IMG/VR virus record: IMGVR_UViG_3300031857_000482
Span: 1 to 39,868 of that record
Length of the DNA stretch: 39,868 bases
Reading direction: 5' to 3' (one strand)
Source: a virus
How positions within the stretch are numbered: the first letter of the stretch is position 1; each line of letters starts with the position of its first letter. Below the pieces are notes generated by a model, which did not search any database, was not told where the DNA came from, and saw only the letters and a list, made by a program, of their open reading frames with translations. The translations under genes were made by a program, and so were the position numbers. Shown piece after piece: positions 3,600-15,363 of the stretch.

Positions 3600-3632
3600 T
3601 CAAGGTTTTTGAGATTCTTTGATAAGATTTGC

Positions 3633-3716
3633 CGTAACCCCTTGGTACTACTAAACTTAGGACGAAATCTCGGCCGCGGCCGGGTCGTAAGTGCTGCCGT
3701 AGCAACAACTTACGAT
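3633..3716. repeat. Q element copy Q1
   Basis: 84 bp, the most divergent copy. Arms CGTAACCCCTTGG...TTAGGACG and CGTAAGTGCTG...CTTACGAT flank a CGGCCGCGGCCG core instead of GCGGCCGC. It lies 22 bp past the stop of the DUF932 gene and 34 bp upstream of the next -35 box. Confidence 0.75.
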
Positions 3717-3737
3717 TACCGGCTTTCGGCCATGCTG

Positions 3738-4688
3738 TCAGATCGCGTTGGCGAACTCCACCGCCTTGTTGAGAGCCTTGATATTATCGTTGGCGTTCAA
3801 ACCAAACCAGAGGCTGTCGAGCCGATTATCTTCGGTGCGACCCTTCGCATAGTTCAGGTATTCGTTGAAGCCATTGTATGCAGCCCACCACGTTCCACGA
3901 ACACCAGTGGCGGATTGCTTCGGGCCTTCGATACGGGCAAGAATGTCATCCATAATATTACGGGTGCGAGTCTTGATATCGTCATCAGGCGTACCTTCAA
4001 TGTCGAGCATGGTTTTCACATACCGACGAATATCGGCCTGATTGAAGTTCTTGCTAGCAAGGAAACGGAACTGCTCCGCTGTAGCCTCAAACTCCGCATT
4101 GATATTGTCCATGATATCTCGCACATTTTCCAGATTGTTCTTGCTGGAACGTGTGTGACGAATACGGATCAACTTGCTACCGCTACCCTTACTGTGAGCC
4201 ATAGCCATCGTGTTAGCACAAACCACTCGAATGGGGGTATAGCCCACGCGAATAGCGGTTGTACCATCGTGGCTATTGCTCAGTAGAATAAACTTGCAAA
4301 CCTCATCACCACGCACAATCTCGCTATTGTCGCGGTTCAGTTGTGCCAGCACCCAAACCTTCTGCCCCTCGTGGAGCGAACCGGCAGTATGCAACGCACA
4401 CTCGCCAGCATCAATAAAAGGCTGGAACCAGTCAAACGCATCAATATTCTGGAGCGGCGTATAACGCGGCCCCACAACACCCAAGATGCTATTATCGGTT
4501 TTACGATATGTAGCACGGGCTGGAACAGGCGTCCCCTCTTGAGTGAACAGGTCTTTCAGACCCACTTCCCAATCCAGACCAGCGGCAGTAATTGCCTCCG
4601 AAACAGTGGGAGCCTCGTCCAGTTGATTCCCGAGTCCGTGCCAAGGAGTCTCACCAACAAACATCATTTGTTCAACAGCATGAGCCAT
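3738..4688 (-). CDS. DUF932 (TIGR03299-type) phage/plasmid protein
   Basis: 316 codons from the ATG at 4688, chosen because AAAGGG lies 6 nt before it; an open frame extends further but crosses the promoter. The features of the DUF932 family are clear: N-terminal PWHGLGNQLDEAPTVSEAI, then GVVGPRYTPLQN, an ALHTAGSLHEGQKVWVLAQL segment, RVVCANTMAMA and a helical C-terminus with GTWWAAYNGFNEYLNYAKG. The family is widespread in phages and plasmids and its biochemical role is not established. Single-gene unit with its own promoter (4732-4760) and Q elements on both sides. Codons are more GC-rich than in the tiny genes around it. Confidence 0.9.
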   Translation of the reverse strand: MAHAVEQMMFVGETPWHGLGNQLDEAPTVSEAITAAGLDWEVGLKDLFTQEGTPVPARATYRKTDNSILGVVGPRYTPLQNIDAFDWFQPFIDAGECALHTAGSLHEGQKVWVLAQLNRDNSEIVRGDEVCKFILLSNSHDGTTAIRVGYTPIRVVCANTMAMAHSKGSGSKLIRIRHTRSSKNNLENVRDIMDNINAEFEATAEQFRFLASKNFNQADIRRYVKTMLDIEGTPDDDIKTRTRNIMDDILARIEGPKQSATGVRGTWWAAYNGFNEYLNYAKGRTEDNRLDSLWFGLNANDNIKALNKAVEFANAI

Positions 4689-4731
4689 TATCATCCCTTT
4701 CGTGTTACTAGTTCTTCGTTCCGATACGCTG

Positions 4732-4760
4732 ATTCTACAGTATGATATCGGCCAAGTCAA
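4732..4760 (-). promoter_or_regulatory. Promoter for the DUF932 gene
   Basis: TTGACT (4760-4755), 17 bp spacer with GGCCGATA, TAGAAT (4737-4732) with an upstream TG. Transcription should begin about 37 bp before the ATG at 4688. Confidence 0.7.
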
Positions 4761-4788
4761 GCAGAAACTTTGAGAAAAAATTTCGCGT

Positions 4789-4870
4789 CGTAAGTCGTTG
4801 GCTCGTAACAACTTACATCAAACCCGCGGCCGCGAACTCGCCCTAAGTCCTTACAGGGCATAGATTTAGG
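4789..4870. repeat. Q element copy Q2
   Basis: 82 bp with central GCGGCCGC. Left arm CGTAAGTCGTTGGCTCG..., right arm ...CTAAGTCC...TTTAGG. The last nine codons and the TAG stop of the phosphoribosyltransferase gene are encoded inside its right arm. Confidence 0.85.
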
Positions 4871-5337
4871 AGAGGCACACCAAGATCACGTTGGCAAAGT
4901 TTAGATCCAGCCTCGTCATCCTTATATGCTGTTTCGTGAGGCAGATAACAATAAACTCCCATACAAATTGCTCGGGAATATTCTTTCTTAATTTTATTCT
5001 TAATATCTTTAATTGTACTGCCAGAGCAAATTAGATCATCCACAATAATGTATCTAAAAGGAGCAACACCTTCTACCATATGCTCACTATAACACTTCTC
5101 ACCCTTACGCACCAAAACAATATTTTTATTGAGCAATTCTGCAATCTGTGGAACTACCATCATGCCACTAGCACCACAACAGGCTATGCTATCAAAACTA
5201 TCACTAATTTTACGCAGATCACAAACGGCCCTAATAATAATCTTATTTCGAACCTTGTGATTCAAAACATGGCAAGTGTGGCTAGCAGCCTGGATATACT
5301 TGCCTTCTTCGGTGCGATTAACGTTTGTAGTAATCAT
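4843..5337 (-). CDS. Type I phosphoribosyltransferase-like protein
   Basis: 164 codons. The PRPP-binding loop is clear at residues 97-108 (IIVDDLICSGST), with SIACCGASGMM at about 50-60 as the PPi-loop region and a C-terminal LPHETAYKDD segment. This fits the orotate/hypoxanthine PRTase fold; the base substrate cannot be told. The ATG at 5337 lies 3 nt after the tRNA-like element, so an earlier in-frame ATG at 5364, inside that element, was rejected. No good ribosome site is present. The C-terminal residues LLNLCPVRT come from Q2 sequence, suggesting that the element truncated or replaced the original gene end. Confidence 0.8.
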   Translation of the reverse strand: MITTNVNRTEEGKYIQAASHTCHVLNHKVRNKIIIRAVCDLRKISDSFDSIACCGASGMMVVPQIAELLNKNIVLVRKGEKCYSEHMVEGVAPFRYIIVDDLICSGSTIKDIKNKIKKEYSRAICMGVYCYLPHETAYKDDEAGSKLCQRDLGVPLLNLCPVRT

Positions 5338-5341
5338 AAAA

Positions 5342-5429
5342 ACGGATGGTTGGATTCGAACCAACTAAAGAGAAGAATAAGAAAGGATGATTCCTTATGA
5401 TAGATTGCTGTCCCACCAGCAGCATCCGT
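5342..5429 (-). tRNA. tRNA-like element, possibly degenerate class II tRNA
   Basis: 88 nt. Acceptor ACGGATG/CATCCGT, D arm GCTG/CAGC and T arm GTTGG-TTCGAAT-CCAAC are intact. The anticodon region does not form a 5-bp stem with a 7-nt loop; AAGGA/TCCTT pairs around only four bases instead. It may be a decayed tRNA, a tRNA with an insertion, or a processing signal before the PRTase gene. No anticodon is assigned. Confidence 0.5.
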
Positions 5430-5442
5430 TCAGAAGAGAAGG

Positions 5443-5628
5443 CTAATCGTCAATTTCCTCAGTTAGATTGTGGTAATAGTTTTCCCAGTCCGAGTGGCTA
5501 ACAGTTTCCTCATCATGCTCATCATATTCCTCATCGCATGAATACAAGTCATCACAGTCTCTAGCAAGGCTATCGTAATCAAAAGTATCGCTATCGTCAC
5601 CGTAATAATCTTCGTTATCATATCTCAT
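5443..5628 (-). CDS. Very acidic small protein
   Basis: 61 codons from the ATG at 5628, preceded by AGGAG. About 27 of 61 residues are Asp or Glu, with many Tyr (MRYDNEDYYGDDSDTF...). No membrane segment or metal motif. Such composition occurs in DNA-mimic inhibitors of host proteins, but this is inference. Transcribed from the near-consensus promoter at 5650-5678; the tRNA-like element follows 13 nt downstream. Confidence 0.7.
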   Translation of the reverse strand: MRYDNEDYYGDDSDTFDYDSLARDCDDLYSCDEEYDEHDEETVSHSDWENYYHNLTEEIDD

Positions 5629-5649
5629 AAGCCTTTCTCCTTTTCTACC

Positions 5650-5678
5650 ACTATACACCAAACCGGTCAAACTGTCAA
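5650..5678 (-). promoter_or_regulatory. Strong promoter, TTGACA-17-TATAGT
   Basis: Perfect -35, 17 bp spacer, extended TGGTG before TATAGT. It lies between tRNA-Lys and the acidic gene. It lacks CGATA; the TGGTGTAT part equals the late-promoter motif of the right half. Confidence 0.75.
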
Positions 5679-5751
5679 TGGGCCATGAAGGACTCGAACC
5701 TTCAACCTACAACTTAAAAGGATGCTGCTCTGCCAATTGAGCTAATGGCCC
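5679..5751 (-). tRNA. tRNA-Lys (anticodon TTT)
   Basis: 73 nt. Acceptor GGGCCAT/ATGGCCC, loop CTTTTAA, T arm GAAGG-TTCGAGT-CCTTC, discriminator A, no CCA. The anticodon stem has one T-T mismatch. Own promoter at 5762-5789. Confidence 0.9.
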
Positions 5752-5761
5752 TTATTCTAGC

Positions 5762-5789
5762 ATTATACACTATGTTATCGTCTTGTCAA
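5762..5789 (-). promoter_or_regulatory. Promoter for tRNA-Lys
   Basis: TTGACA (5789-5784), 16 bp spacer with GACGATAA, TATAAT (5767-5762) with TG in front. It lies between tRNA-Glu and tRNA-Lys. Confidence 0.75.
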
Positions 5790-5804
5790 CCCCAAAAACT
5801 TTAG

Positions 5805-5876
5805 TGACCCCACAGGGAATCGAACCCTGATTTTATCCGTGAAAGGGATACGTACTAGCCGTTATACGATGGGGCC
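5805..5876 (-). tRNA. tRNA-Glu (anticodon TTC)
   Basis: 72 nt. Acceptor GGCCCCA/TGGGGTC with one G-T pair, anticodon stem TATCC/GGATA around CTTTCAC, T loop TTCGATT, discriminator A, no CCA. Confidence 0.92.
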
Positions 5877-5905
5877 ACACTCGCAACTCAAACGTCAGCC
5901 TCCGA

Positions 5906-5976
5906 TTCCGGGGCTAGGATTCGAACCCAGACAAAGTGATCCAAAGTCACTAGTGCTACCGTTACACCACCCCGGA
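5906..5976 (-). tRNA. tRNA-Gln (anticodon TTG)
   Basis: 71 nt. Acceptor TCCGGGG/CCCCGGA, anticodon stem AGTGA/TCACT around CTTTGGA, T loop TTCGAAT, discriminator A, no CCA. Adjacent to tRNA-Thr with no spacer. Confidence 0.92.
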
Positions 5977-6048
5977 AGCCAGCAGAGGGAATCGAACCCC
6001 CGACAGGTTGTTTACAAAACAACTACTCTACCACTGAGTTACGCTGGC
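5977..6048 (-). tRNA. tRNA-Thr (anticodon TGT)
   Basis: 72 nt. Acceptor GCCAGCG/TGCTGGC, anticodon stem GTTGT/ACAAC around TTTGTAA, T loop TTCGATT, discriminator T, no CCA. First of the Thr-Gln-Glu-Lys group. Confidence 0.92.
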
Positions 6049-6058
6049 AAGACTACAT

Positions 6059-6087
6059 ATCATACTCATTACGCCAAGTCTTGTCAA
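6059..6087 (-). promoter_or_regulatory. Promoter for the tRNA Thr-Gln-Glu group
   Basis: TTGACA (6087-6082), 17 bp spacer, TATGAT (6064-6059). The -35 overlaps the stop codon of the gene at 6084. No CGATA motif. Confidence 0.7.
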
Positions 6088-6437
6088 CGGCGGATCGGGT
6101 ACGCTCCCGCTTGGGCCGGTTGTCCATTACCGTGTCCCGATGCTCCCTGTGACCCGTTGCCAGTTCCCAGCGTTGCTTGACCTTGATTTTCACGTTTTCG
6201 TATTTGCGGCGGCTTGTCATACCATAACCCATCGTTGTGAAGATACCACGTTTTATTATTGTTAGGATCGTATGCTACTTGATACATGAAGTATTGTAGC
6301 GGTTGAGCCTGTTTTCTTTCAAGTCTAAACGTATCCACTATCTCGGGGTGAGAATCAGTATAATGTTTCATCTCTCCCCAAACTAACACTACCAATCCCA
6401 GTAGTGCTACGATTAGTTGTACCACAGTCTGTTTCAC
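6084..6437 (-). CDS. Membrane-anchored or secreted small protein
   Basis: 117 codons from a GTG; GGGAG lies 7 nt before it. Residues 4-21 (TVVQLIVALLGLVVLVWG) form one membrane segment or signal anchor. The middle has WYLHNDGLWYDKPP, and the C-terminal third is a flexible Gly/Gln/Asn-rich tail (GTGNGSQGASGHGNG). No cysteine lipobox is seen. The gene stands alone between Q3 and the tRNA group and is read from a -10-only TGGTGTATAAA site. Unknown function; an inner-membrane exclusion or spanin-like role cannot be judged. Confidence 0.65.
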   Translation of the reverse strand: MKQTVVQLIVALLGLVVLVWGEMKHYTDSHPEIVDTFRLERKQAQPLQYFMYQVAYDPNNNKTWYLHNDGLWYDKPPQIRKRENQGQATLGTGNGSQGASGHGNGQPAQAGAYPIRR

Positions 6438-6449
6438 TTGTCAACTCCC

Positions 6450-6463
6450 TTTATACACCATTT
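6450..6463 (-). promoter_or_regulatory. -10-only promoter TGGTGTATAAA
   Basis: TGGTGTATAAA at 6460-6450 matches the late motif of the rightward genes, here on the minus strand 12 nt from the GTG. A GCCGATAA motif lies just upstream and no -35 box is visible. Confidence 0.5.
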
Positions 6464-6495
6464 ATCGGCCATTCTCTAGCGAACCTTTAGTTTTT

Positions 6496-6577
6496 CCTAA
6501 GTGGTTGATAGCAAACAACTTACGAAGAATTCGCGGCCGCGGCCGTTCCCTAAGTGCTTATGCACAAAGGGTTTACG
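6496..6577. repeat. Q element copy Q3
   Basis: 82 bp with central GCGGCCGC. Left arm CCTAAGTGGTTG...ACTTACG, right arm CCTAAGTGCTTA...GTTTACG. It begins 9 bp past the stop of the gene at 6586 and sits upstream of the 6450 promoter. Confidence 0.88.
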
Positions 6578-6585
6578 GCTAGCGA

Positions 6586-6822
6586 TTACATATCATCCAT
6601 ATTCCAGCCCGCAGCATCTAATACCGCCATACTCTTGAATACGCAAGTGTGACCATCAGCAGTTATATAATCCCTAAAACCACGCTCATCTATATAGAAA
6701 TATTCGTCAATAGTATCATTATCATTTAATTCCCACACACTTTGTTGTGCAGCCTCGAAAGGATTCTTATCGCTTGCAAAAATCATTTCTAGTGAACCAC
6801 TTTTTACATAATATTTAGCCAT
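6586..6822 (-). CDS. Small phage protein, unknown
   Basis: 78 codons, MAKYYVKSGSLEMIFAS..., with a beta-rich start, a helix NPFEAAQQSVWEL and VFKSMAVLDAAGW near the end. The layout resembles small phage proteins that begin with Y-hydrophobic strands, but I cannot name the family. ATG overlaps the end of the zinc-ribbon gene (6815-6982) by 8 nt; GGAG lies 7 nt upstream. Confidence 0.7.
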   Translation of the reverse strand: MAKYYVKSGSLEMIFASDKNPFEAAQQSVWELNDNDTIDEYFYIDERGFRDYITADGHTCVFKSMAVLDAAGWNMDDM

Positions 6823-6982
6823 TGTTAATCTCCGTGTGCATATATTTCATATCACAACCACATTCTTCACAAACGGGAGTACCATTATCTTGATACCAGT
6901 TAGGATTTATATTAACTTCATCCTCACAATCTGGACACTCCCATACCGCTCTAACTTTCCTATTATCAATAATATCCCACAT
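6815..6982 (-). CDS. Zinc-ribbon miniprotein
   Basis: 55 codons. Two knuckles, CPDC at residues 16-19 and CEECGC at 38-43, with Trp and Pro between, form a likely four-cysteine zinc ribbon, typical of nucleic-acid or protein docking modules. AAGGA lies 8 nt before the ATG. Coupled to 6586-6822 downstream; the upstream GP88-like gene ends 10 nt before its ATG. Confidence 0.7.
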   Translation of the reverse strand: MWDIIDNRKVRAVWECPDCEDEVNINPNWYQDNGTPVCEECGCDMKYMHTEINNG

Positions 6983-6992
6983 AATTTATTCC

Positions 6993-7697
6993 TTAGTGAG
7001 CAGGAAACAACACGTTAGCCAGACCCTTGACGCACATATCACAACTAATACTATCCTTAGTACCAGTGCAAGTAATAACAGACCGACCACGACGAATCTC
7101 GGGACAAGTTACAAACTTTGTACCGTTCAGCACAACCAGTTTCGGCAACGCTTTACGCCATGCTTCCGCCTTAGCCTTGCTCTTAGGACGCTTGGGAGCG
7201 ATTTTCATATCACTATCACACCACGCGAACAACTTGAAACCTTGTGCCATAGCCTCGCCCATATCTTTATTATCATGGACACTAGCATAGACATTCATAT
7301 ACTTTTCCAGACTAACAAGCCGACTATCATAAATATGAGTATAAAACCACATATCGGGCAGCGTATCACCATCGGCAAGAATACTCTCACAAGCCCACGT
7401 CACGTTGGCAACATAGTCAAGGTCAAGTTCGCCGTTGAGAAACCAGTCACCACGCTCATGCCACCGAATACTTTTCTTACGCTTTTTAGCGTCAAGAATC
7501 ATAGAGCGAATCTTATGCTTTTCTGTAACAATATTAGCAAAGCCTGCAACGCGGGCATTTTTATACTGATTCTCGGTTGCTTCTGCATAGCATCCATTGT
7601 TGAGATAGTCGCAGTCACTCGGGCAAGTATCGCCCACTGGACGCGAAACCACAATGCAACCCTTACCCAACTTGTCATTACCGTCAGCAGTTTTCAT
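6993..7697 (-). CDS. GP88-like cysteine-rich phage protein
   Basis: 234 codons. An N-terminal cluster CPSDCDYLNNGCYAE, then IRWHERGDWF, a helix with KYMNVYASVH and a C-terminal group with CP, CTGTKDSISCDMC. This matches my memory of the phage gene-88 family (PF17338), also found as accessory genes in actinobacteriophages. The cysteines could bind zinc or an Fe-S cluster; activity is unknown. GGGAG lies 7 nt before the ATG. It heads a three-gene unit 7697-6586 driven by the promoter at 7720-7748. Confidence 0.6.
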   Translation of the reverse strand: MKTADGNDKLGKGCIVVSRPVGDTCPSDCDYLNNGCYAEATENQYKNARVAGFANIVTEKHKIRSMILDAKKRKKSIRWHERGDWFLNGELDLDYVANVTWACESILADGDTLPDMWFYTHIYDSRLVSLEKYMNVYASVHDNKDMGEAMAQGFKLFAWCDSDMKIAPKRPKSKAKAEAWRKALPKLVVLNGTKFVTCPEIRRGRSVITCTGTKDSISCDMCVKGLANVLFPAH

Positions 7698-7719
7698 GAT
7701 TGTCTCCCTGTGTCTACTG

Positions 7720-7748
7720 ATTCTACACTATGGTATCGTCACAATCAA
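7720..7748 (-). promoter_or_regulatory. Promoter for the GP88-like unit
   Basis: TTGATT (7748-7743), 17 bp spacer with GACGATA, extended TG-TAGAAT (7725-7720). Preceded by A/T-rich sequence that may act as an UP element. Confidence 0.7.
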
Positions 7749-7776
7749 GCGAAAACTTTGGCAAAAATATTTTTGT

Positions 7777-7858
7777 TCTAAACCGTTGTGGCACAACAAC
7801 TTACATCAAACTCGCCGCCGCGAATCTGTCGTAAGTCCTTACGCTGCAATGATTTAGC
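7777..7858. repeat. Q element copy Q4
   Basis: 82 bp. The core reads GCCGCCGC, one substitution from GCGGCCGC. Left arm TCTAAACCGTTG...ACTTACATC, right arm CGTAAGTCCTTACG...TTTAGCG. Its right edge touches the 3' end of tRNA-Asp. Confidence 0.85.
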
Positions 7859-7931
7859 GAGAGCGACGGGACTCGAACCCGCAACCTCTAGCGTGACAGG
7901 CTAGCGATCTAACCGATTGATCTACGCTCCC
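7858..7931 (-). tRNA. tRNA-Asp (anticodon GTC)
   Basis: 74 nt. Acceptor GGGAGCG/CGCTCTC with one G-T pair, anticodon stem CTAGC/GCTAG around CTGTCAC, T loop TTCGAGT, discriminator G, no CCA. Its 3' end abuts Q4. Confidence 0.92.
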
Positions 7932-7935
7932 TAAA

Positions 7936-8007
7936 TAGCCCCAAGAGGAATCGAACCTCTAATAATTGCTTAGAAGGCAACTGTTATATCCATTTAACTA
8001 TGGGGCC
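7936..8007 (-). tRNA. tRNA-Arg (anticodon TCT)
   Basis: 72 nt. Acceptor GGCCCCA/TGGGGCT, loop CTTCTAA reading AGA/AGG, T arm AGAGG-TTCGATT-CCTCT, discriminator A, no CCA. AGA is the main arginine codon in the late genes. Confidence 0.92.
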
Positions 8008-8069
8008 AAAAACCGATAGCCGCCAGTTTGCACCAGCGGTCTATCGGAATTATAACAGATAGATTATAT

Positions 8070-8324
8070 TCAGGCAACTGCTTCGGCTTCGGCCTCCACC
8101 TTACCATTGTGAGCATCACCGGCCTGCTTCGCTGTCACACCAGTAACACGAGCACGCCACACCTTATAACCCTGCTCGCTGAAAGCCTTGACCTCTCCAG
8201 CCTTGACATTCGCATGAACATCACCGGGCAGAGCATCGGTCAGACAAGACGAGATCGAATCGACAACAGCATCACGATCCAGTTCATCAGCAACCACATC
8301 AACAACAAACGAAAACTTCTTCAT
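8070..8324 (-). CDS. Small phage protein with DALPGDVHANV motif
   Basis: 84 codons from the ATG at 8324, preceded by AAAGGG at 7 nt. An N-terminal strand (KKFSFVVDVVADEL), a helix with DSISSCLTDALPGD and a beta stretch GYKVWRARVTGV suggest a small alpha/beta fold. The alanine/glutamate-rich tail EAEAEAVA is probably disordered. Unknown function. The tRNA pair Arg-Asp lies downstream without an obvious promoter, so it may be cotranscribed. Confidence 0.65.
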   Translation of the reverse strand: MKKFSFVVDVVADELDRDAVVDSISSCLTDALPGDVHANVKAGEVKAFSEQGYKVWRARVTGVTAKQAGDAHNGKVEAEAEAVA

Positions 8325-8369
8325 ATCAGACCCTTTCAAGTTAGTGTTAGTCTCAACCATCATGCTATC

Positions 8370-8398
8370 ATTCTACAGTGTGTATCGTCTAATGTCAA
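8370..8398 (-). promoter_or_regulatory. Promoter, TTGACA-17-TAGAAT
   Basis: TTGACA (8398-8393), spacer with GACGATA, extended TG-TAGAAT (8375-8370). Reads the gene at 8324 and probably tRNA-Arg and tRNA-Asp. Confidence 0.75.
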
Positions 8399-8427
8399 CA
8401 GCGTACTTGAATCGTTTTTCACTTTTG

Positions 8428-8509
8428 CCTAAGTCGTTGTGGCATAAGCACTTACGTCGAGTTCGCGGCCGCGGCCTTGCCCCAAGTTCTTTGGTAGCAA
8501 GGCTTTAGG
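8428..8509. repeat. Q element copy Q5
   Basis: 82 bp with central GCGGCCGC. Left arm CCTAAGTCGTTGTGGC...ACTTACGTCG, right arm CCCAAGTTCTTTGG...CTTTAGG. It lies directly after the TGA of the bL12-like gene. Confidence 0.9.
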
Positions 8510-8878
8510 TCAAGAGAGATAACCCTCACAACCCAAAGAGGTCAGGTCACGCAGCAACTGTTCAGCCGCCTCGGGAGTTTTAGCGGTGAGAGTGATGGGG
8601 TTGCCACCACCACGCCAGAATCCGCTCTCATCGTAGCGACCAACCATACCATCGGTCCAATCCTTCGCTTCCTTCAATCCCCAGCCGGTGTGCTGTCGAA
8701 CAGCCCTGATGCAAGAGATACGATTGTTGCAATCCATACCCTTGGTGATCGTAACCATACGACGCTGGTTCACGCCCAACGCAACCTCAAAAGCGGTCAC
8801 GATCCGCTCATAGATTTCCAGATTGCAGTTCGTAGCCAGATTCATAGCCTCACGAACACTCAGTTGCAGATTGATCAT
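8510..8878 (-). CDS. Ribosomal protein bL12 C-terminal-domain protein
   Basis: 122 codons from the ATG at 8878 (AAAGGG 7 nt upstream). Residues 54-75, with IRAVRQHTGWGLKEAKDW, match the signature helix pair of the bL12 (L7/L12) C-terminal domain, and TPEAAEQLLRDLTSLGCE near the end matches its last helix and strand. The N-terminal 40 residues are not the bL12 dimerisation domain. The bL12 CTD binds translation factors on the ribosome stalk, so the product may compete for or recruit them. Phage-encoded bL12 homologues are known. Overlaps the end of 8881-9288 through its ribosome site. Confidence 0.8.
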   Translation of the reverse strand: MINLQLSVREAMNLATNCNLEIYERIVTAFEVALGVNQRRMVTITKGMDCNNRISCIRAVRQHTGWGLKEAKDWTDGMVGRYDESGFWRGGGNPITLTAKTPEAAEQLLRDLTSLGCEGYLS

Positions 8879-8880
8879 AT

Positions 8881-9288: not shown

Positions 9289-9294
9289 ATTTGT

Positions 9295-9323
9295 ACTATA
9301 CCTTATCGATCAATCGTTGTCAA
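9295..9323 (-). promoter_or_regulatory. Promoter giving a leaderless transcript
   Basis: TTGACA (9323-9318), 17 bp spacer with ATCGATAA, TATAGT (9300-9295). Predicted +1 falls on the ATG at 9288. Confidence 0.75.
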
Positions 9324-9335
9324 TACCTTTAATCT

Positions 9336-9381
9336 CGCTGACTACAGCCACTCTAGCCAAATCCGTAGGATTAGGAGAGAC
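9336..9381 (-). repeat. R element copy R5
   Basis: The best preserved copy. Hairpin CCTAATCC-TAC-GGATTTGG (C-UACG-G loop in RNA), then GCTG-TAGT-CAGC. The TAA in the first strand stops the 28-codon frame at 9371-9457. The next promoter begins 13 bp downstream. Confidence 0.8.
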
Positions 9382-9457
9382 AAATAGATTGGGTTATGCC
9401 ATACTCGGCTTTGCATTTAACCGCGGCTTCTTTGATATCATTCTGCCAACGGCCCAA
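9371..9457 (-). CDS. Possible 28-codon peptide gene
   Basis: Frame LGRWQNDIKEAAVKCKAEYG... from a TTG preceded by AGGGGG at 9 nt, directly after the promoter at 9474-9501. The peptide would form an amphipathic helix. It ends ICLS with TAA inside R5, the same ending style (SLS, SLT) as other genes that run into R elements. Too short for certainty. Confidence 0.4.
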   Translation of the reverse strand: MGRWQNDIKEAAVKCKAEYGITQSICLS

Positions 9458-9473
9458 ATCTACTTGCCCCCTA

Positions 9474-9501
9474 AGTATACATCTATTATCGGGATAGTCA
9501 A
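9474..9501 (-). promoter_or_regulatory. Promoter, TTGACT-16-TATACT
   Basis: TTGACT (9501-9496), spacer with CCCGATAA, TATACT (9479-9474). It reads the short frame at 9457 and R5. Confidence 0.65.
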
Positions 9502-9519
9502 GAGGATTCTTTAAAAAAT

Positions 9520-9602
9520 CCTAAGTCGTTGTTGGATAAGCACTTAGATCAAATTCGCGGCCGCGAACTCTTCCTAAGTCCTTACCCTATCAGGAGTTAG
9601 CG
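9520..9602. repeat. Q element copy Q6
   Basis: 83 bp with central GCGGCCGC followed by GAA. Left arm CCTAAGTCGTTG...ACTTAG, right arm CCTAAGTCCTTACC...GTTAG. The stop TGA of the gene at 9590 lies in its right arm. A T6 run follows the last arm in transcript sense. Confidence 0.88.
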
Positions 9603-10113: not shown

Positions 10114-10291
10114 TATTATATCTCTTATACAGAAAGAATAATCCAATCACAAAAATTAAACCATACAATACACTTGGCTCTGGCACAATAGTGATGCCGT
10201 CTGGTGATATTAACACAAACGGTGGTAATTGCAATAGGGGTGGTTCATATTTAAACCATGGTTCCCAATCAATATCGGGTAATTTATTCAT
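10100..10291 (-). CDS. Small protein with PEP-CTERM-like C-terminus
   Basis: 63 codons from the ATG at 10291, AGAGA just upstream. The C-terminus VPEPSVLYGLIFVIGLFFLYKR (residues 37-58) has the order of a PEP-CTERM sorting signal: Pro-Glu-Pro, a hydrophobic span and a basic cluster. No N-terminal signal peptide is visible, which real exosortase substrates normally have, so it may just be a tail-anchored membrane protein. Coupled on both sides in the 10729-9590 unit. Confidence 0.6.
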   Translation of the reverse strand: MNKLPDIDWEPWFKYEPPLLQLPPFVLISPDGITIVPEPSVLYGLIFVIGLFFLYKRYNNGME

Positions 10292-10298
10292 TAAATCT

Positions 10299-10505
10299 CT
10301 ACCAACTCTCTGGCATAGGAATATCATTAAGATTCATATAATAGATAACATCATATTTCTTAGGATAAGTCCAAGGATTAGTATTATCTGACCAATAAGA
10401 AGTTGTTAAACTGGTTTGCCAATATAACAATAGTGGATAACTACAACCTTTAACAGCACACAAATACGGTCCATCAGTGATAGGATTGCCATAATTCCAC
10501 TTCAT
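10299..10505 (-). CDS. Small Trp/Tyr-rich phage protein
   Basis: 68 codons, MKWNYGNPITDGPYLCAVKG... with KKYDVIYYMNLNDIPMPESW at the end. The W...P..DG.YL pattern at the start and W..IP.PES at the end look like the DUF551 type of small phage protein; moderate confidence in the resemblance only. ATGA overlap with the upstream gene. Confidence 0.6.
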   Translation of the reverse strand: MKWNYGNPITDGPYLCAVKGCSYPLLLYWQTSLTTSYWSDNTNPWTYPKKYDVIYYMNLNDIPMPESW

Positions 10506-10729
10506 GATTTAGCCCTCGTAACGATCAAACACTTCGTACCACTATCACTATCGGTCAATTTCACACTCTCATGAGGCCCATAATACCAAGCGTCATTCTT
10601 GGAAAAATTAAACACAACCTCTTCAGTTTTCAGACCGGTATCATTATACCCACCCTCATAACCAAGAGTAAGAACCCGCATATCAGCCGGATAACTCTTC
10701 AACTGCTCAATCAGTTCGTTAACTGTCAT
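10502..10729 (-). CDS. Conserved small phage protein (MTVNELIEQLKSYPAD type)
   Basis: 75 codons. The N-terminal helix TVNELIEQLKSYPADMRVL and following GYEGGYND are typical of a widespread small phage/bacterial hypothetical family that I recognise by pattern but cannot name. AGGGAGAG precedes the ATG. First gene of the unit 10729-9590 behind a consensus promoter. Confidence 0.75.
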   Translation of the reverse strand: MTVNELIEQLKSYPADMRVLTLGYEGGYNDTGLKTEEVVFNFSKNDAWYYGPHESVKLTDSDSGTKCLIVTRAKS

Positions 10730-10747
10730 TTTCTCTCCCTTTCCACC

Positions 10748-10775
10748 ATTATACCATTCTTTATCGGTAAGTCAA
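10748..10775 (-). promoter_or_regulatory. Promoter, TTGACT-16-TATAAT
   Basis: TTGACT (10775-10770), spacer with ACCGATAA, consensus TATAAT (10753-10748). Reads the five-gene unit starting at 10729. Confidence 0.8.
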
Positions 10776-10779
10776 TAAG

Positions 10780-10979
10780 AAAAAACCAGCGAATCTTTTA
10801 CGCCCCGATTCTATAATCCAATCTAGTACCCGATATTTTTAACCCTTGGGCCAGGTAAAAACTAGTGGAAACCGCCCACGACATTGGTCCCTAGAAATAT
10901 GATCAGTATTTCATCACCTTGCTATTCAAGCGGTTACTGGTTGTATTGGCCGTGGTCTGGACGCAATCCCACATAGATA
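10780..10979 (-). ncRNA. Candidate structured non-coding RNA 1
   Basis: About 200 nt behind a good promoter, with no open frame. Foldable pieces in transcript sense: GTGG/CCAC hairpin at the start; GGCCA pairing with a distant TGGCC; AACCGC pairing with GCGGTT; inside these, CTTG-AATAG-CAAG and GAAATA/TATTTC hairpins, giving a nested multi-branch fold. A GAATC/GATTC hairpin followed by GCTGGTTTTTT could terminate it. It does not look like tmRNA, RNase P RNA, 6S or a known riboswitch. Confidence 0.4.
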
Positions 10980-10985
10980 GGCACT

Positions 10986-11013
10986 ACTATACAGCGTATA
11001 AGCCCGCTGTCAA
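10986..11013 (-). promoter_or_regulatory. Promoter for candidate RNA 1
   Basis: TTGACA (11013-11008), 16 bp spacer, extended TG-TATAGT (10991-10986). No CGATA motif, like the tRNA promoter at 6059. Confidence 0.7.
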
Positions 11014-11194
11014 CCCCACGCTGCATAACAGCCGTAGGTTTATCGTAATGGCTTATCCCTATCTAGTCCCTTGAGCATGGACCCACGGAAGTTTGTATTG
11101 TTAGGACCGATTGTAGAAGACGTTTCCTAGGACATCAACTACCGTTTTTACCGGCTGCTCGGCCCGACATAGCCAACAAGCGTTTGCTTGTTCT
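11014..11194 (-). ncRNA. Candidate structured non-coding RNA 2
   Basis: About 180 nt without a gene behind the promoter at 11201-11228. It begins with a perfect AACAAGC-AAAC-GCTTGTT hairpin. CAGCCG can pair with CGGCTG about 115 nt later, enclosing CCG-TAAAAA-CGG and GTCC/GGAC hairpins. It may be separate from, or the 5' part of, candidate RNA 1. No terminator is seen before the next promoter. Confidence 0.35.
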
Positions 11195-11200
11195 TCAATC

Positions 11201-11228
11201 ATTGTACACTATGTTTATCGGTTGTCAA
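11201..11228 (-). promoter_or_regulatory. Promoter, TTGACA-16-TACAAT
   Basis: TTGACA (11228-11223), spacer with ACCGATAA, extended TG-TACAAT (11206-11201). The -35 overlaps the stop of the gene at 11225. Reads candidate RNA 2. Confidence 0.75.
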
Positions 11229-11701
11229 GCGGCCAAAACTTTACCCACAATCCGTTTTCCCACATAAAGATTCCTGTGGGCACGTTTGGAGCCAAGATAC
11301 TTGGCCGCAGTTCGGCTATCCATCACCCTAACACTCAATCCCTCCGGAGATACAAATACTAAAACCAATTTGTGAAAATTATTTGGGCAAATATGTTGAA
11401 ACTTATAACTATATTTTACCACACCACCCACCACACCAACGCGAGCCAAAGCAGATTTTACTTCTACCTTGCGACCATTCACCATCATATCAAATGATGC
11501 ACTACCACCAATATAGGAAACAATCTTACCAGTACTCTTATAATAGTCTCTAATCATACGCTCAATAGCATTACCCCTATACTGGCTACTCATCTTGGAG
11601 AGTCGATAGGCCAAAATGCTTTTCTTGGGAGAGAAGATAGATTTGTTATGAAGTCCACGAACTTCATTCAGCACACGATCAAGATTTTTTGTGGTAAACA
11701 T
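11225..11701 (-). CDS. PD-(D/E)XK nuclease-like protein
   Basis: 158 codons. Residues 43-82 show the motif order of PD-(D/E)XK nucleases: GNAIERMI with Glu47, SFDMMVNG with Asp71, then RKVEVKSA with Glu80 and Lys82. The length suits a small restriction-endonuclease-like or Holliday-junction-resolvase-like domain. The target is unknown; a host-DNA or recombination role is inference. The ATG lies 6 nt after the -10 box, so the transcript is probably leaderless. Q7 lies upstream of its promoter. Confidence 0.65.
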   Translation of the reverse strand: MFTTKNLDRVLNEVRGLHNKSIFSPKKSILAYRLSKMSSQYRGNAIERMIRDYYKSTGKIVSYIGGSASFDMMVNGRKVEVKSALARVGVVGGVVKYSYKFQHICPNNFHKLVLVFVSPEGLSVRVMDSRTAAKYLGSKRAHRNLYVGKRIVGKVLAA

Positions 11702-11707
11702 AGTGTG

Positions 11708-11735
11708 AGTCTACAGAACATAATCGGTTTGTCAA
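11708..11735 (-). promoter_or_regulatory. Promoter giving a leaderless nuclease transcript
   Basis: TTGACA (11735-11730), 16 bp spacer with ACCGAT, extended TG-TAGACT (11713-11708); +1 predicted at the ATG at 11701. Confidence 0.7.
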
Positions 11736-11763
11736 CCAAATTTCTTGATCAAATTTAGTTTGT

Positions 11764-11846
11764 TGTAAAGTCTTAGCCAGTAAGCACTTACGATGATTTC
11801 GCGGCCGCGGCCTCGCCCTAAGTCCTTGGCTGGCAAAGACTTAGAG
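11764..11846. repeat. Q element copy Q7
   Basis: About 82 bp with central GCGGCCGC. In this copy the two arms share a matching variable loop (GCCAG in the left arm, CTGGC in the right), which supports pairing or symmetry between arms. The right arm also forms CTAAGT...ACTTAG. Confidence 0.88.
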
Positions 11847-11858
11847 CGACTGCCACGA

Positions 11859-12266
11859 TCAGCAGAGAAACGATGCCAATCCCGTCTTAAACGCTACCCC
11901 ACCAAGGAGGGGACGACGCACATTCGTGGTACGTTCAGCGTAAAAGTTGCGAATCTTACCATCGGGAGTTTGTGCAGTTACAAGGTGAGTAGTACGCTGA
12001 AAGTTATCATCATACCTACGATAGCGACTTTGTCTATTCAGTCGGCGGATACTTTCATCCGACAGCCGATGAACTTCCAGTACCCTTGCCATGTAACGCT
12101 CAGGCTCACCATGCAGCGGCTGATGATATACAAAATTGTAAACACCACCAACCCTAGCAGTAATCAGATTATCACGCACACCAGCATAAACGTGGAAAGC
12201 GGCAAAAGCCAGAAGACCACAAGTCACAACCGCAAAAACACTACCAACAATAAACGCATCGTTCAT
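11859..12266 (-). CDS. Small membrane protein, unknown
   Basis: 135 codons from the ATG at 12266 (AAGGA 7 nt upstream). Residues 5-26 (FIVGSVFAVVTCGLLAFAAF) form one membrane segment. The cytoplasmic or periplasmic part is basic (RRLNRQSRYRRYDDNFQR). It follows a 29-codon membrane peptide gene in the same unit and ends 13 bp before Q7. Confidence 0.65.
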   Translation of the reverse strand: MNDAFIVGSVFAVVTCGLLAFAAFHVYAGVRDNLITARVGGVYNFVYHQPLHGEPERYMARVLEVHRLSDESIRRLNRQSRYRRYDDNFQRTTHLVTAQTPDGKIRNFYAERTTNVRRPLLGGVAFKTGLASFLC

Positions 12267-12279
12267 ATTTTTTCCTTTT

Positions 12280-12369
12280 TTAGAAATCGCAGTTACAACA
12301 AATATCAGTAAACAAAACACCACAAGTAAAAACCGTCACAATCGTACTAATCATCCACATCCAAAACAT
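12280..12369 (-). CDS. 29-residue membrane peptide
   Basis: MFWMWMISTIVTVFTCGVLF with a cysteine-rich tail ICCNCDF. GGAG lies 7 nt before the chosen ATG at 12369; an ATG two codons earlier is too close to it. Directly behind the promoter at 12394-12422. Confidence 0.5.
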   Translation of the reverse strand: MFWMWMISTIVTVFTCGVLFTDICCNCDF

Positions 12370-12393
12370 TTTCATTCTCCAAGTGATAAACCA

Positions 12394-12422
12394 AGCATAC
12401 CATACTTATCGGTTGCTGTCAA
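12394..12422 (-). promoter_or_regulatory. Promoter, TTGACA-17-TATGCT
   Basis: TTGACA (12422-12417), spacer with ACCGATAA, TATGCT (12399-12394). It is embedded in the last codons and stop of the gene at 12406; the TAA stop is part of CGATAA. Confidence 0.65.
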
Positions 12423-12573
12423 CATGTACTTTGGGAATAATTTCCGTTTCCCACCACAATTGTTCATATTCAGATCGAAGCCGACTGACTTCAGAATACG
12501 GCTGACTAATATCCTCCACAGCATCCAAATAAGCCTTATAAGCCGCTTCTAATCGCTGACTATAACTTTCCAT
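12406..12573 (-). CDS. Small helical protein, unknown
   Basis: 55 codons, MESYSQRLEAAYKAYLDAVEDIS..., a likely helical hairpin. TAATG overlap with the upstream acidic gene. The C-terminal VHVDSNR and stop are encoded by promoter sequence. Confidence 0.65.
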   Translation of the reverse strand: MESYSQRLEAAYKAYLDAVEDISQPYSEVSRLRSEYEQLWWETEIIPKVHVDSNR

Positions 12574-12830
12574 TAGTAATCCTCCCCGTAGTCGCCAAAA
12601 TAACCGTAATCCTCATCGGTTCCCCAACCCGCTGACTCCATCGCGGAATCATGGTCGCCATCCATACTGTCATCATAGTCATCATCATCATAACCTTCAT
12701 CTTCATTCATTTGATCACGGATTTCATCCAGCTCGTTTTCCGGCAAACCCCAAAAATCATTGTGGTCATCGTAATTCATATCATCCTCATAAGAGTTATC
12801 GGGATCGAACAAGGGATCGGGGTGACTCAT
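12573..12830 (-). CDS. Very acidic protein, possible DNA mimic
   Basis: 85 codons. Roughly 40 percent Asp plus Glu, with runs such as YDDDDYDDSMDGDHD and a Tyr/Gly-rich end (DYGYFGDYGEDY). No Lys and very few Arg. The composition resembles anti-restriction or other DNA-mimic proteins of phages, but no family signature exists. AAAAGG precedes the ATG. Middle gene of the unit 13019-12406. Confidence 0.75.
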   Translation of the reverse strand: MSHPDPLFDPDNSYEDDMNYDDHNDFWGLPENELDEIRDQMNEDEGYDDDDYDDSMDGDHDSAMESAGWGTDEDYGYFGDYGEDY

Positions 12831-12842
12831 GACTTTTCCTTT

Positions 12843-13019
12843 TTAGTGGGTGTACCAGAAGATACCGTTATCGTCAACCATCGGCTCAGGATACATTTCA
12901 TCGAAAGTACCCGTAACGTCAGCAAACTCCAGAGGGTGAACGTCAATCTCGTCAATCGGCTCGATCATACCATCATCCCGCATGCAGGCCAGAATATCGT
13001 TGATTTCATCAAGGCTCAT
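12843..13019 (-). CDS. Small acidic protein, unknown
   Basis: 58 codons, MSLDEINDILACMRDDG... with PLEFADVTGTFDEMYPEPM and a final DDNGIFWYTH. GGAG lies 8 nt before the ATG. First gene after the promoter at 13049-13076. Confidence 0.7.
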   Translation of the reverse strand: MSLDEINDILACMRDDGMIEPIDEIDVHPLEFADVTGTFDEMYPEPMVDDNGIFWYTH

Positions 13020-13048
13020 CTTCGTTTCTCCGTTGGGGTGATACGCTT

Positions 13049-13076
13049 AGGATACCATAATTATCGGCCAACGCAA
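13049..13076 (-). promoter_or_regulatory. Promoter, TTGCGT-16-TATCCT
   Basis: TTGCGT (13076-13071), spacer with GGCCGATAA, TATCCT (13054-13049). Reads 13019 to 12406. Confidence 0.6.
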
Positions 13077-13109
13077 GCAAAATCTTTGGATTTTTTGAAA
13101 AATAATTCC

Positions 13110-13152
13110 ATGCCAAACCACAAAAATTTTTGCGGCATACCGTTTGCTGTGG
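13110..13152. repeat. K motif copy K1
   Basis: TGCC, an A/T-rich stretch (AAAAATTTTT), GGCATACCGTTTGCT. Located between promoter 13049 and Q8. TGCC and GGCA can pair. Confidence 0.6.
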
Positions 13153-13160
13153 CTATAGAT

Positions 13161-13242
13161 CGTAAACCGTTGTCCCGTAAGCACTTATGTCGATTTCGCG
13201 GCCGCGGCCTTGTCGTAAGTTCTTACGAGGCAAGGCTTTGCG
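13161..13242. repeat. Q element copy Q8
   Basis: 82 bp with the GCGGCCGC octamer at the exact centre (13198-13205). Left arm CGTAAACCGTTGTCCCG..., right arm CGTAAGTTCTTACG...TTTGCG. The variable loops of the arms mirror each other (TCCCG and CGAGG). Confidence 0.9.
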
Positions 13243-13326
13243 TCAAGTATTAACAATCCAGGCCGTGATGCACCCCACTATAAACGTGCAGAATAGTGTA
13301 ATTCCTTCAAATATCGTCAGATTCAT
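13243..13326 (-). CDS. 27-residue membrane peptide
   Basis: MNLTIFEGITLFCTFIVGCI..., one hydrophobic span. AAGGA lies 8 nt before the ATG, inside the end of the upstream gene. Its TGA stop touches the edge of Q8. Confidence 0.5.
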   Translation of the reverse strand: MNLTIFEGITLFCTFIVGCITAWIVNT

Positions 13327-13426
13327 TTTCCGATTCCTTTGGAAAAACTAAATCGCTCAAGGCATAACACGCTGTTACACCCACAATAATACCAAATACT
13401 AAACTATAAGGCTCGAAAAGATCCAT
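13307..13426 (-). CDS. 39-residue membrane protein
   Basis: MDLFEPYSLVFGIIVGVTAC... with one membrane segment (residues 8-25) and an acidic tail KESENESDDI. AGGAG lies 7 nt before the ATG at 13426; an out-of-frame ATG just before it was rejected. Overlaps the next gene by 20 nt. Confidence 0.55.
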   Translation of the reverse strand: MDLFEPYSLVFGIIVGVTACYALSDLVFPKESENESDDI

Positions 13427-13443
13427 CCATGGACTCCTTTTTA

Positions 13444-13752
13444 TTATGAAACCACCATACCATCCATAAACGGATATTCTTTACCGTTAATCTTAACATA
13501 CCAAGTAAAATCCCGCTGGTAAACTCTCACCGGGCTATACTGATTAATTCTATCCTTCGTGGTCACAGTCTGCCAACCCCCACTATTAAGGGTATACGTA
13601 CCATTACTATTAATCTTTACCACATAGGTACTATGCAACTTAATTGCCACAGTATTATCATGTAGAATTTCAGCGTAGGTATTGTTGCCAATCTTTCGGC
13701 TAGTCTTATTACGCTTACCTTGCACCATCACAACCGCTTCTGCATGAGTCAT
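13444..13752 (-). CDS. Conserved phage hypothetical protein (TYTLNSGGWQTVTTKDR)
   Basis: 102 codons. Recognisable by VQGKRNKTSRKIGNNTY, TYTLNSGGWQTVTTKDRIN and YSPVRVYQRDFTWYV, a beta-rich protein seen in many unrelated phages; function not known to me. GGGAG lies 8 nt before the ATG. Two membrane peptide genes follow. Confidence 0.8.
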   Translation of the reverse strand: MTHAEAVVMVQGKRNKTSRKIGNNTYAEILHDNTVAIKLHSTYVVKINSNGTYTLNSGGWQTVTTKDRINQYSPVRVYQRDFTWYVKINGKEYPFMDGMVVS

Positions 13753-13776
13753 TTTCTTCTCCCTAGTGTTATCGGT

Positions 13777-13804
13777 ATTCTACAGGCTAAACTTTAAAAG
13801 TCAA
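13777..13804 (-). promoter_or_regulatory. Promoter, TTGACT-16-TAGAAT
   Basis: TTGACT (13804-13799), extended TG-TAGAAT (13782-13777); here ACCGATAA lies 2 bp downstream of the -10 instead of in the spacer. Confidence 0.7.
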
Positions 13805-13812
13805 ACGCTTTT

Positions 13813-13858
13813 CGCTGACTACAGCCACCCCAGCCAAACCCGAAGGGTTAGGTGGAAC
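13813..13858 (-). repeat. R element copy R6
   Basis: Hairpin CCTAACCC-TTC-GGGTTTGG. Compared with R5 the stem has T to C and matching A to G changes, so pairing is kept, and the loop becomes UUCG. It lies between the stop at 13861 and promoter 13777. Confidence 0.8.
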
Positions 13859-13860
13859 AG

Positions 13861-14055
13861 TCAGTCCCACGACCCCGTATATGTTGGGCTGAAATTGTTG
13901 GGCGATGGCAGCACCTTGCCGCGTCGATCTTCAAACTTCTGCCATACCTTCCAAGCCTCGTCGCGGTATTGAAGATAGGTGGCAGTCCACAGATTCTCAA
14001 CATCGTTTCGGGTTTTGCAATCGTTCAGGCTTTCCAGAATCAGCATCTCGTTCAT
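13861..14055 (-). CDS. Small helical protein, unknown
   Basis: 64 codons, MNEMLILESLNDCKTRNDVEN..., with QYRDEAWKVWQKFEDRRGKV; probably helical. GGAGG lies 6 nt before the ATG. Single-gene unit between promoter 14083 and R6. Confidence 0.7.
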   Translation of the reverse strand: MNEMLILESLNDCKTRNDVENLWTATYLQYRDEAWKVWQKFEDRRGKVLPSPNNFSPTYTGSWD

Positions 14056-14082
14056 CGTTTCCTCCGTTGTGATTATATCGGT

Positions 14083-14110
14083 ATTTTACAGGCCGATCTT
14101 TAGATTGCAA
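14083..14110 (-). promoter_or_regulatory. Promoter, TTGCAA-16-TAAAAT
   Basis: TTGCAA (14110-14105), extended TG-TAAAAT (14088-14083), ACCGATA 2 bp downstream of the -10. Confidence 0.6.
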
Positions 14111-14133
14111 GCGAATTTTTCAAATATAATTTC

Positions 14134-14170
14134 ATGCCAAACAAAAAAAATCTTTGGCACAGCGTTTGCG
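14134..14170. repeat. K motif copy K2
   Basis: TGCCAAA, A8 run, TTTGGCACAGCGTTTGC. The TGCCAAA/TTTGGCA arms pair over 7 bp. Between promoter 14083 and Q9. Confidence 0.6.
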
Positions 14171-14181
14171 TTAGAGTTTGA

Positions 14182-14263
14182 TGTAAGTCGTTATGTAGCA
14201 AGCACTTACGTCGAATCCGCGGCCGCGAAACCGTCGTAAGTCCTTATGCCATAAGGGTTTGCG
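14182..14263. repeat. Q element copy Q9
   Basis: 82 bp with GCGGCCGC at the exact centre (14219-14226). The right arm contains a perfect CCTTAT-GCC-ATAAGG hairpin; the left arm is TGTAAGTCGTTATG...ACTTACG. Confidence 0.9.
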
Positions 14264-14282
14264 TCAAGTTTTGTGTTTCACT

Positions 14283-14314
14283 GTACATGCGTACACTACT
14301 GTACACTTGTACAC
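14283..14314. repeat. GTACA cluster 1
   Basis: Four GTACA/TGTAC words at intervals of 8-10 bp, directly beside Q9 on the side of the upstream gene. Confidence 0.5.
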
Positions 14315-14316
14315 CA

Positions 14317-14329
14317 CCCCAAATGGGGG
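14317..14329. repeat. C-run/G-run hairpin H1
   Basis: CCCC-AAAT-GGGGG, 4 bp past the stop of the gene at 14333 in transcript sense. First of a set of such hairpins between 14.3 and 16.5 kb. Confidence 0.5.
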
Positions 14330-14332
14330 ATA

Positions 14333-14653
14333 TTAGCCCTCCCACCCAAAGGGGGATATTTCCTCCCCTGCTGCTGCTGCATATTGAGCGGCCAACGCTT
14401 CGACCCTCTCACGCGAACCCGGCTTGCCCACGGGCAGGATCATCGTATCCTCACCCCCCACAACGCGGGGGTCAACCTTCTCAACCTTACGCTTTCCGAT
14501 ATTCCGCAACGCCTTGCGATTGAACTTCAAAACCTTCTCGCTATGGATGGGGCCATATACCCCTTCCGCGAGGGAGGGCTGGTGAACGATAGCGATACCC
14601 TCAAAATGAGCGAGGATGCTGCGACGAAAATCAGACAGGATAGCAGACTTCAT
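14333..14653 (-). CDS. Basic small protein, unknown
   Basis: 106 codons, MKSAILSDFRRSILAHFEG... with a basic centre (KVLKFNRKALRNIGKRKVEKV) and VALAAQYAAAAGEE near the end. AAGGA lies 7 nt before the ATG. It could bind nucleic acid, from charge only. Its last codons contain another C-run/G-run (CCCAAAGGGGG). Confidence 0.7.
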   Translation of the reverse strand: MKSAILSDFRRSILAHFEGIAIVHQPSLAEGVYGPIHSEKVLKFNRKALRNIGKRKVEKVDPRVVGGEDTMILPVGKPGSRERVEALAAQYAAAAGEEISPFGWEG

Positions 14654-14723
14654 TTTTTATTCCTTATGGTTGATTGAACTGATGGATTGTACCAAACTTT
14701 TTTTGTGATCCACAACCCCCCTA

Positions 14724-14957
14724 TCAGGTGGGTCGCTTCTCAACATGGGCCACAAAATCGCTTACGCTATCATGCACCCAAGCGTAGAAAGATTCAAGGT
14801 CGGAAGGGTTCACCCTATCCCACACCCTACGCATAATTTCCGAATTCGAATAAACCCAACGTATACGCTTTTCACCATCGAACCTAAACAGGTTTACTTG
14901 CACATTCCACCCTTTGGTGGGGTTAGAGAAACCAACATTCTTCAAAAGCGTTTTCAT
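14724..14957 (-). CDS. Small phage protein, unknown
   Basis: 77 codons from the ATG at 14957, MKTLLKNVGFSNPTKGWNVQVNLF... with RRVWDRVNPSDLESFYAWVHD. GGAGG lies 10 nt upstream, inside the end of the upstream zinc-finger gene. Unknown family. Confidence 0.65.
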   Translation of the reverse strand: MKTLLKNVGFSNPTKGWNVQVNLFRFDGEKRIRWVYSNSEIMRRVWDRVNPSDLESFYAWVHDSVSDFVAHVEKRPT

Positions 14958-14959
14958 GT

Positions 14960-15115
14960 TCAGCAAGCCTCCCCATCATCATAACCGGGAATGTAATCGT
15001 TTTCGTAAACTTCAGTGATAATCTCACAATGCTCACCACAAGCCGAGCAAATTGCATGATTTTCATCACTCTCAACATTGCAGCAATCGGAAACGAAAAA
15101 AACCATCTCTCTCAT
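14960..15115 (-). CDS. Cysteine-rich miniprotein, paralogue of 15723-15890
   Basis: 51 codons from the ATG at 15115. Cysteines at CC, CSAC and C-terminal AC with His, and an ending YIPGYDDGEAC that is shared with the gene at 15723-15890 (YIPGFDDGEAC). Probably one small zinc site. The ribosome site is a GAGAAAG purine run. Confidence 0.7.
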   Translation of the reverse strand: MREMVFFVSDCCNVESDENHAICSACGEHCEIITEVYENDYIPGYDDGEAC

Positions 15116-15157
15116 AACTTTCTCTCTCTTTCTTTCTCTCTTACTTGTTATATCGGC

Positions 15158-15185
15158 ATTATACACGCCACACTTGAGGGTTCAA
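15158..15185 (-). promoter_or_regulatory. Promoter, TTGAAC-16-TATAAT
   Basis: TTGAAC (15185-15180), extended TG-TATAAT (15163-15158), GCCGATA 2 bp past the -10. Two 11-bp GTTAGGATTAT-type repeats (15186-15202) lie directly upstream. Confidence 0.7.
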
Positions 15186-15231
15186 GTTAGGATTATGTTA
15201 GGAAAAAGATTTTTTTGAGTGTGCAAATATC

Positions 15232-15273
15232 ATGCCGAAAAAATATTTATTTGTGGCACGCGATTTGCTACGG
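15232..15273. repeat. K motif copy K3
   Basis: TGCC, A/T-rich stretch, GGCACGCGATTTGCTACGG, between promoter 15158 and Q10. Confidence 0.6.
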
Positions 15274-15281
15274 CGATTTGT

Positions 15282-15363
15282 CGTAAGTCGTTGCAGCGTA
15301 AGCACTTAGGTCGATTTTGCGGCCGCGATTTTGCTGTAAGTCCTTATGCTGTAAGGGTTTACG
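15282..15363. repeat. Q element copy Q10
   Basis: 82 bp with GCGGCCGC at the exact centre (15319-15326). The arms mirror each other at about 22 of 29 positions; the right arm holds CCTTA-TGCTG-TAAGG. Confidence 0.9.

Follow-up and report, generated by a model that had tools for sequence, protein, structure and literature searches.

Q elements of an uncultured large-phage lineage: probable paired docking sites for a protein at whole helix turns upstream of early promoters, rather than hairpins

The window analyzed here is the complete 39,868-bp stretch of the viral record IMGVR_UViG_3300031857_000482 (positions 1 to 39,868). Ten copies of an element of about 84 bp with two 25-bp arms, designated Q1 to Q10, lie in the gaps between leftward early genes, all in a single orientation, in a region where eight tRNA genes are found as well. 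The question raised by this locus is what such a family does. A preliminary description, made from the letters of the window, had read the elements as NotI-centred dyads with nested hairpin or cruciform symmetry. The dyad family proved real, while the hairpin and cruciform symmetry did not hold.

The Q family in the window and in related contigs

The ten-copy family is not a chance assembly. The GCGGCCGC octamer has 8 exact occurrences in 39.9 kb against 0.1 expected, every one of them within the family, and all ten copies were recovered both by repeat search and by HMM (nhmmer E-values from 1e-21 to 1e-24 for nine copies and 4e-10 for Q1). All ten lie on the minus strand, a shared orientation that the preliminary description had not mentioned. 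The octamer sits on the exact centre, at positions 11–18 of a 28-nt spacer, in Q2 (4787–4871), Q3 (6495–6579), Q5 (8428–8511), Q6 (9519–9600), Q7 (11762–11846), Q8 (13160–13244), Q9 (14180–14265) and Q10 (15280–15365); the exact midpoint had been reported for the last three and extends to the other five. Instead of the exact octamer, Q4 (7775–7857) has GCCGCCGC as its core at 7814, and Q1 (3631–3715), the most divergent copy, has the TCGGCCGCGG variant at 3668, with the core TCGGCCGC on the dyad. Each arm in the window consists of two YAANNNNTTR boxes, and each box is palindromic by itself.

Relatives were gathered by scanning viral contigs for the core pattern and for the DUF932 protein encoded between Q1 and Q2. 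The scan yielded about 80 contigs of up to 244 kb, most of which carry the elements, clustered in roughly one 20-kb stretch per large contig. An iterated HMM recovered 467 copies from about 70 large-phage contigs, of which 338 were unique and full-length; raw element counts are inflated by near-identical contigs. Covariation was evaluated on 173 representatives less than 80% identical.

The family appears to be undescribed, as had been supposed. The region from 12.8 to 15.7 kb has no similar DNA among 50,697 phage records, tRNAs are the sole Rfam matches in the window at gathering score, and the element description was not found in the searchable literature, outside which most subscription papers lie.

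Several other repeats accompany the Q elements. A second upstream family, AATCC-N3-GGATT-N15-GTCAGC in the sense orientation, occurs at 1665–1712, 1899–1946, 3439–3486, 9335–9382 and 13812–13859; its 138 matches in the loci are all on the sense strand, often near tRNA genes, and mostly 15 or 22–23 nt from the −35 box where a promoter was matched. Five sigma54-like TGGCAY-N5-TTGC sites (0.06 expected) lie at 14155–14169, 15254–15268, 16353–16367 and 16388–16402 on the plus strand and at 16309–16323 on the minus strand, two of them directly adjoining Q9 and Q10. Clusters of TGTACA/GTACAC repeats at 14282–14305 and 15373–15396 also adjoin Q9 and Q10 and are followed by short CCCC..GGGG inverted repeats.

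Conserved geometry and the hairpin reading

Across the 338 unique relatives, the arms are free of insertions and deletions, and the gap between the inner TTA..TAA half-sites is 28 nt in 327. The strong half-sites fall at alignment columns 5.5, 26.5, 58.5 and 79.5, giving spacings of 21, 32 and 21 bp, and spacer positions 11–17 form a block of about 95% or more G/C. The NotI octamer itself is not a hallmark of the family: what relatives retain on the dyad is just a block made up of G and C, in many sequences. Reduced forms, with the core and one arm or the core by itself, occur in the outgroup. Judged from the aligned copies, the conserved feature is a geometry of duplex DNA, with half-sites spaced at two, three and two helical turns about a centre of G and C only.

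Base pairing found no support. In the covariance and dyad test of the 173 representatives, variable columns paired at or below the shuffled level in both arm hairpins, in the loop mirror and across the whole dyad. The mirrored arm loops described for Q7, Q8 and Q10 gave WC pairing of 0.29 against 0.30 in shuffled controls over the same set. Strong covariation of columns 24/25 with 60/61, in the inner half-sites, was rejected as base pairing, as it largely reflects differences between genome types. The cores were somewhat more palindromic than shuffled ones (5.9 vs 4.5). The quasi-palindromic arms (TAAGT...ACTTA) are an effect of the two self-palindromic boxes in each arm, and the nested symmetry was seen because every box seems complementary to every other. 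The hairpin or cruciform with mirrored loops was dropped on these covariation results. Nor do the aligned copies have the layout of an intrinsic terminator: the arms are followed by several nucleotides and then AT-rich DNA, with no U tract straight after a stem, and the G/C core lies mid-element.

Elements are phased to early promoters and switch type in concert

The elements sit just upstream of predicted sigma70-type early promoters of the form TTGAC..CGATA..TANNNT. A good sigma70-like promoter was found within 140 nt downstream of 436 of 521 elements, compared with 95 of 504 control windows, and 386 of these 436 had CGAT or GATA in the promoter spacer. Viewed from the promoters, an element lies no more than 150 nt upstream in 322 of the 492 consensus early promoters, and the opposite strand has only 2 promoters of this kind. 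Predicted promoters in the window, all on the minus strand, include that of the DUF932 gene (4732–4760; TTGACT-N17-TAGAAT, with GCCGATA in the spacer and the AT tract AAATTTTTTCTCAAAG ahead) and those downstream of Q4 (7720–7748; TTGATT-N17-TAGAAT), Q5 (8370–8398; TTGACA-N17-TAGAAT), Q6 (9474–9501; TTGACT-N16-TATACT) and Q7 (11708–11735; TTGACA-N16-TAGACT).

Three arm types were distinguished among the relatives, namely T (TAAGT-type), A (a TAAAC variant) and P. The distance from the outer TTA to the −35 box is mostly 19–21, 29–32 or 40–42 nt in T copies (centres 20, 30.5 and 41), values one helical turn apart. For 222 unique T copies the Rayleigh statistic nR2 was 167 at 10.5 bp; when each combination of downstream gene cluster and distance was counted once (n = 64), it was 40, against 7.0 at the 99.9% level of the null. 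For a single orthologous gene the distance can be 20, 30 and 41 nt in different genomes, a jump by whole turns. P copies lie near 15, 25 and 51–52 nt.

Within the window, the distance is 30 nt for Q2, Q4 and Q7, 31 nt for Q5, 20 nt for Q6, about 19–20 nt for Q3 with its weak −35 promoter, and uncertain for Q1. Q8–Q10 lie 70–100 nt from the next promoter (about 85 nt for Q8) in no clear phase, with a TGCCA..TGGCA segment (TGCCA..TGGCA-like for Q10) interposed. The whole-turn distances of class-I upstream sites are therefore found across the family but not in these three copies. The interposed segments resemble the sigma54-like sites.

In P-type phages, the whole element is CTGCCAAAATGGCAG-N14-CTGCCAAAATGGCAG, with the 14-nt spacer exact in every matched copy. 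Its arms are direct repeats, AAAA nearly always lies on the gene-sense strand, and the centre is C|G in 92% of unique cores. With one exception, each genome has a single arm type: 62 P pairs were found in P loci and 1 elsewhere, and no T element was detected in P loci at E 1e-3. The exception, the short contig L071, has one P-type element (323–366) and two T-type elements and has either recombined recently or been assembled as a chimera.

The types interleave on the DUF932 tree, where L061 (P) is sister to L062 (A), and L078, L085 and L086 (P) fall among the T-type L069, L077 and L079–L084 with few changes between them; whole element sets have thus been replaced together. Some of the interleaving may come from gene exchange in a recombining region. 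In aligned relatives, the upstream gene end with its stop codon, the promoter and the DUF932 start are kept and the element between them changes type; the exchange takes place at fixed positions and in all copies. This concerted replacement by a different docking sequence points to a shared regulator. Neither the phasing nor the concerted switching is visible from the window alone.

A lone T-like arm (3540–3568, minus strand), recognized by sequence and a weak nhmmer match, lies directly downstream of the −10 box of the promoter after Q1. Its position is kept in relatives, even in the P-type phages L061 and L063, and it may therefore have another role.

A putative regulator and competing readings

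On this sequence evidence, we infer that a protein binds the elements and contacts RNA polymerase, and we consider it fairly likely that Q elements serve, upstream of early promoters, as paired operators bound by a sequence-specific regulator. Each element would be a double-stranded docking site for a probably dimeric regulator, either phage- or host-encoded, with two arms flanking the G/C-only centre. Because the strongest half-sites are whole helical turns apart, the bound protein would be lined up on one face of the DNA. The element would stand just upstream of an AT-rich UP-like tract and the −35 box of a strong leftward early promoter, and at 20, 30.5 or 41 nt the complex would always face RNA polymerase in the same way.

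If the phased site works in this manner, its effect is, by a slight preference and by analogy, mainly activation of the class-I (UAS-like) or Fis-site kind. Phased contact with RNA polymerase favours activation, and repression is possible; phasing alone fits activation and repression, by contact or looping, alike. Near-consensus promoters may need no activator. Going further, we tentatively propose a promoter "key" system of jumbo phages, in which most early promoters would share a phased two-arm site and lineages would repeatedly exchange the full set of copies in one step; the keys would act as types of compatibility or competition, determined either by a phage regulator or by an activator of the host.

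The rival that survives best, though we think it unlikely, is a set of repressor operators or stoperator-like immunity sites, at which a phage regulator would silence early promoters or stop transcription from reading through, with arm types corresponding to immunity groups. Stoperators of cluster A mycobacteriophages likewise occur as many intergenic copies in short gaps and one orientation, with a phage-specific consensus changing in concert (PMC6550527, PMC9283540). However, they are 13-bp asymmetric sites with a known repressor, mostly not associated with promoters (PMC6550527, PMC9283540), whereas Q sites are dyads of 44–84 bp that lie upstream of promoters and are phased to the −35 box at class-I activator positions. 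No repressor was found in the fetched, incomplete contigs.

DNA architecture or insulation is a considerably less probable explanation. Nucleoid-type wrapping, or a gyrase site or barrier to supercoils ahead of heavily transcribed units, with a G/C block that resists melting, would agree with AT/GC steps phased over 84 bp and with a G/C-only dyad block kept through all arm types, even in core-only outgroup copies; sequence-specific arms, wholesale type switching and exact −35 phasing exceed what insulation needs. A structural hairpin, cruciform or RNA element (a terminator, a REP/REPIN- or ERIC-like repeat or a processing site), suggested by the inverted repeats that the window appears to contain, by its G/C palindromes and by elements that often start at the upstream stop codon, is very improbable given the pairing results, the invariant loop length, the direct-repeat P arms that preclude a single long perfect hairpin and the separate intrinsic terminators preceding many copies.

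Class-I CRP sites, at −61.5, −71.5/−72.5 and −81.5/−82.5, also lie upstream of the −35 box in steps of about 10.5 bp, and CRP acts there by contact with the alpha C-terminal domain of RNA polymerase (PMC6301791); the Q family differs in its length of 44–84 bp, its four boxes or two arms and its G/C centre, and activation by the putative factor is an analogy. Protein p4, a regulator of phage phi29, binds near promoters to imperfect inverted repeats arranged in pairs and reads out A-tracts, but its four sites lie at one locus, have another consensus and are not a repeated family (PMC3100819). As the logic resembles both class-I activator sites and stoperators, we read the mechanism as a variation on schemes already known from upstream activators or phage operators.

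Two further systems offer parallels. The rrnB P1 promoter consists of a core promoter, an UP element and phased Fis sites, an order matched here by core promoter, AT-rich UP-like tract and putative phased protein sites; however, Q arms do not fit the Fis pattern G-N13-C, the P arm CTGCCAAAATGGCAG having C..G at its ends, and the type of Q site changes between close relatives. The T-type boxes YAANNNNTTR are close to the IHF core CAANNNNTTR, whereas P-type elements have no IHF-like core, and no DNABII (IHF/HU) protein was found in 11 contigs.

The search for the regulator itself covered the fetched, incomplete contigs, where no candidate gene tracks arm type. An OGG-like HhH protein was rejected as the switching factor; its identity (85–93% in some T genomes, 67–73% in others, 62–67% in P and A) does not follow arm type. 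A 72-aa HTH-like protein with an AT-hook-like RGRPAK tail (18599–18817) is conserved across the lineage and was likewise set aside as a regulator, as it follows lineage. Weakly conserved P67 genes include no transcription-factor family, only a weak HNH match and a methyltransferase. The first gene of the rightward module (19040–19687) matches sigma-70 region 2 weakly, at E 8e-4, which falls short of the cut-off. A Bacteroidetes host, linked through one 3.7-kb contig in a MAG, was distrusted because the promoters are of the TTGACA/TANNNT type.

This large uncultured phage lineage seems to run its early genes via a regulator, and the sequence that this regulator recognizes appears to have been exchanged throughout on several occasions. 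Neighbouring genes stayed nearly unchanged during the swaps, which makes the lineage a natural experiment on concerted change of a multi-site regulatory code. The phasing makes direct tests of the element easy, and if the factor belongs to the host, arm type would read out the host.
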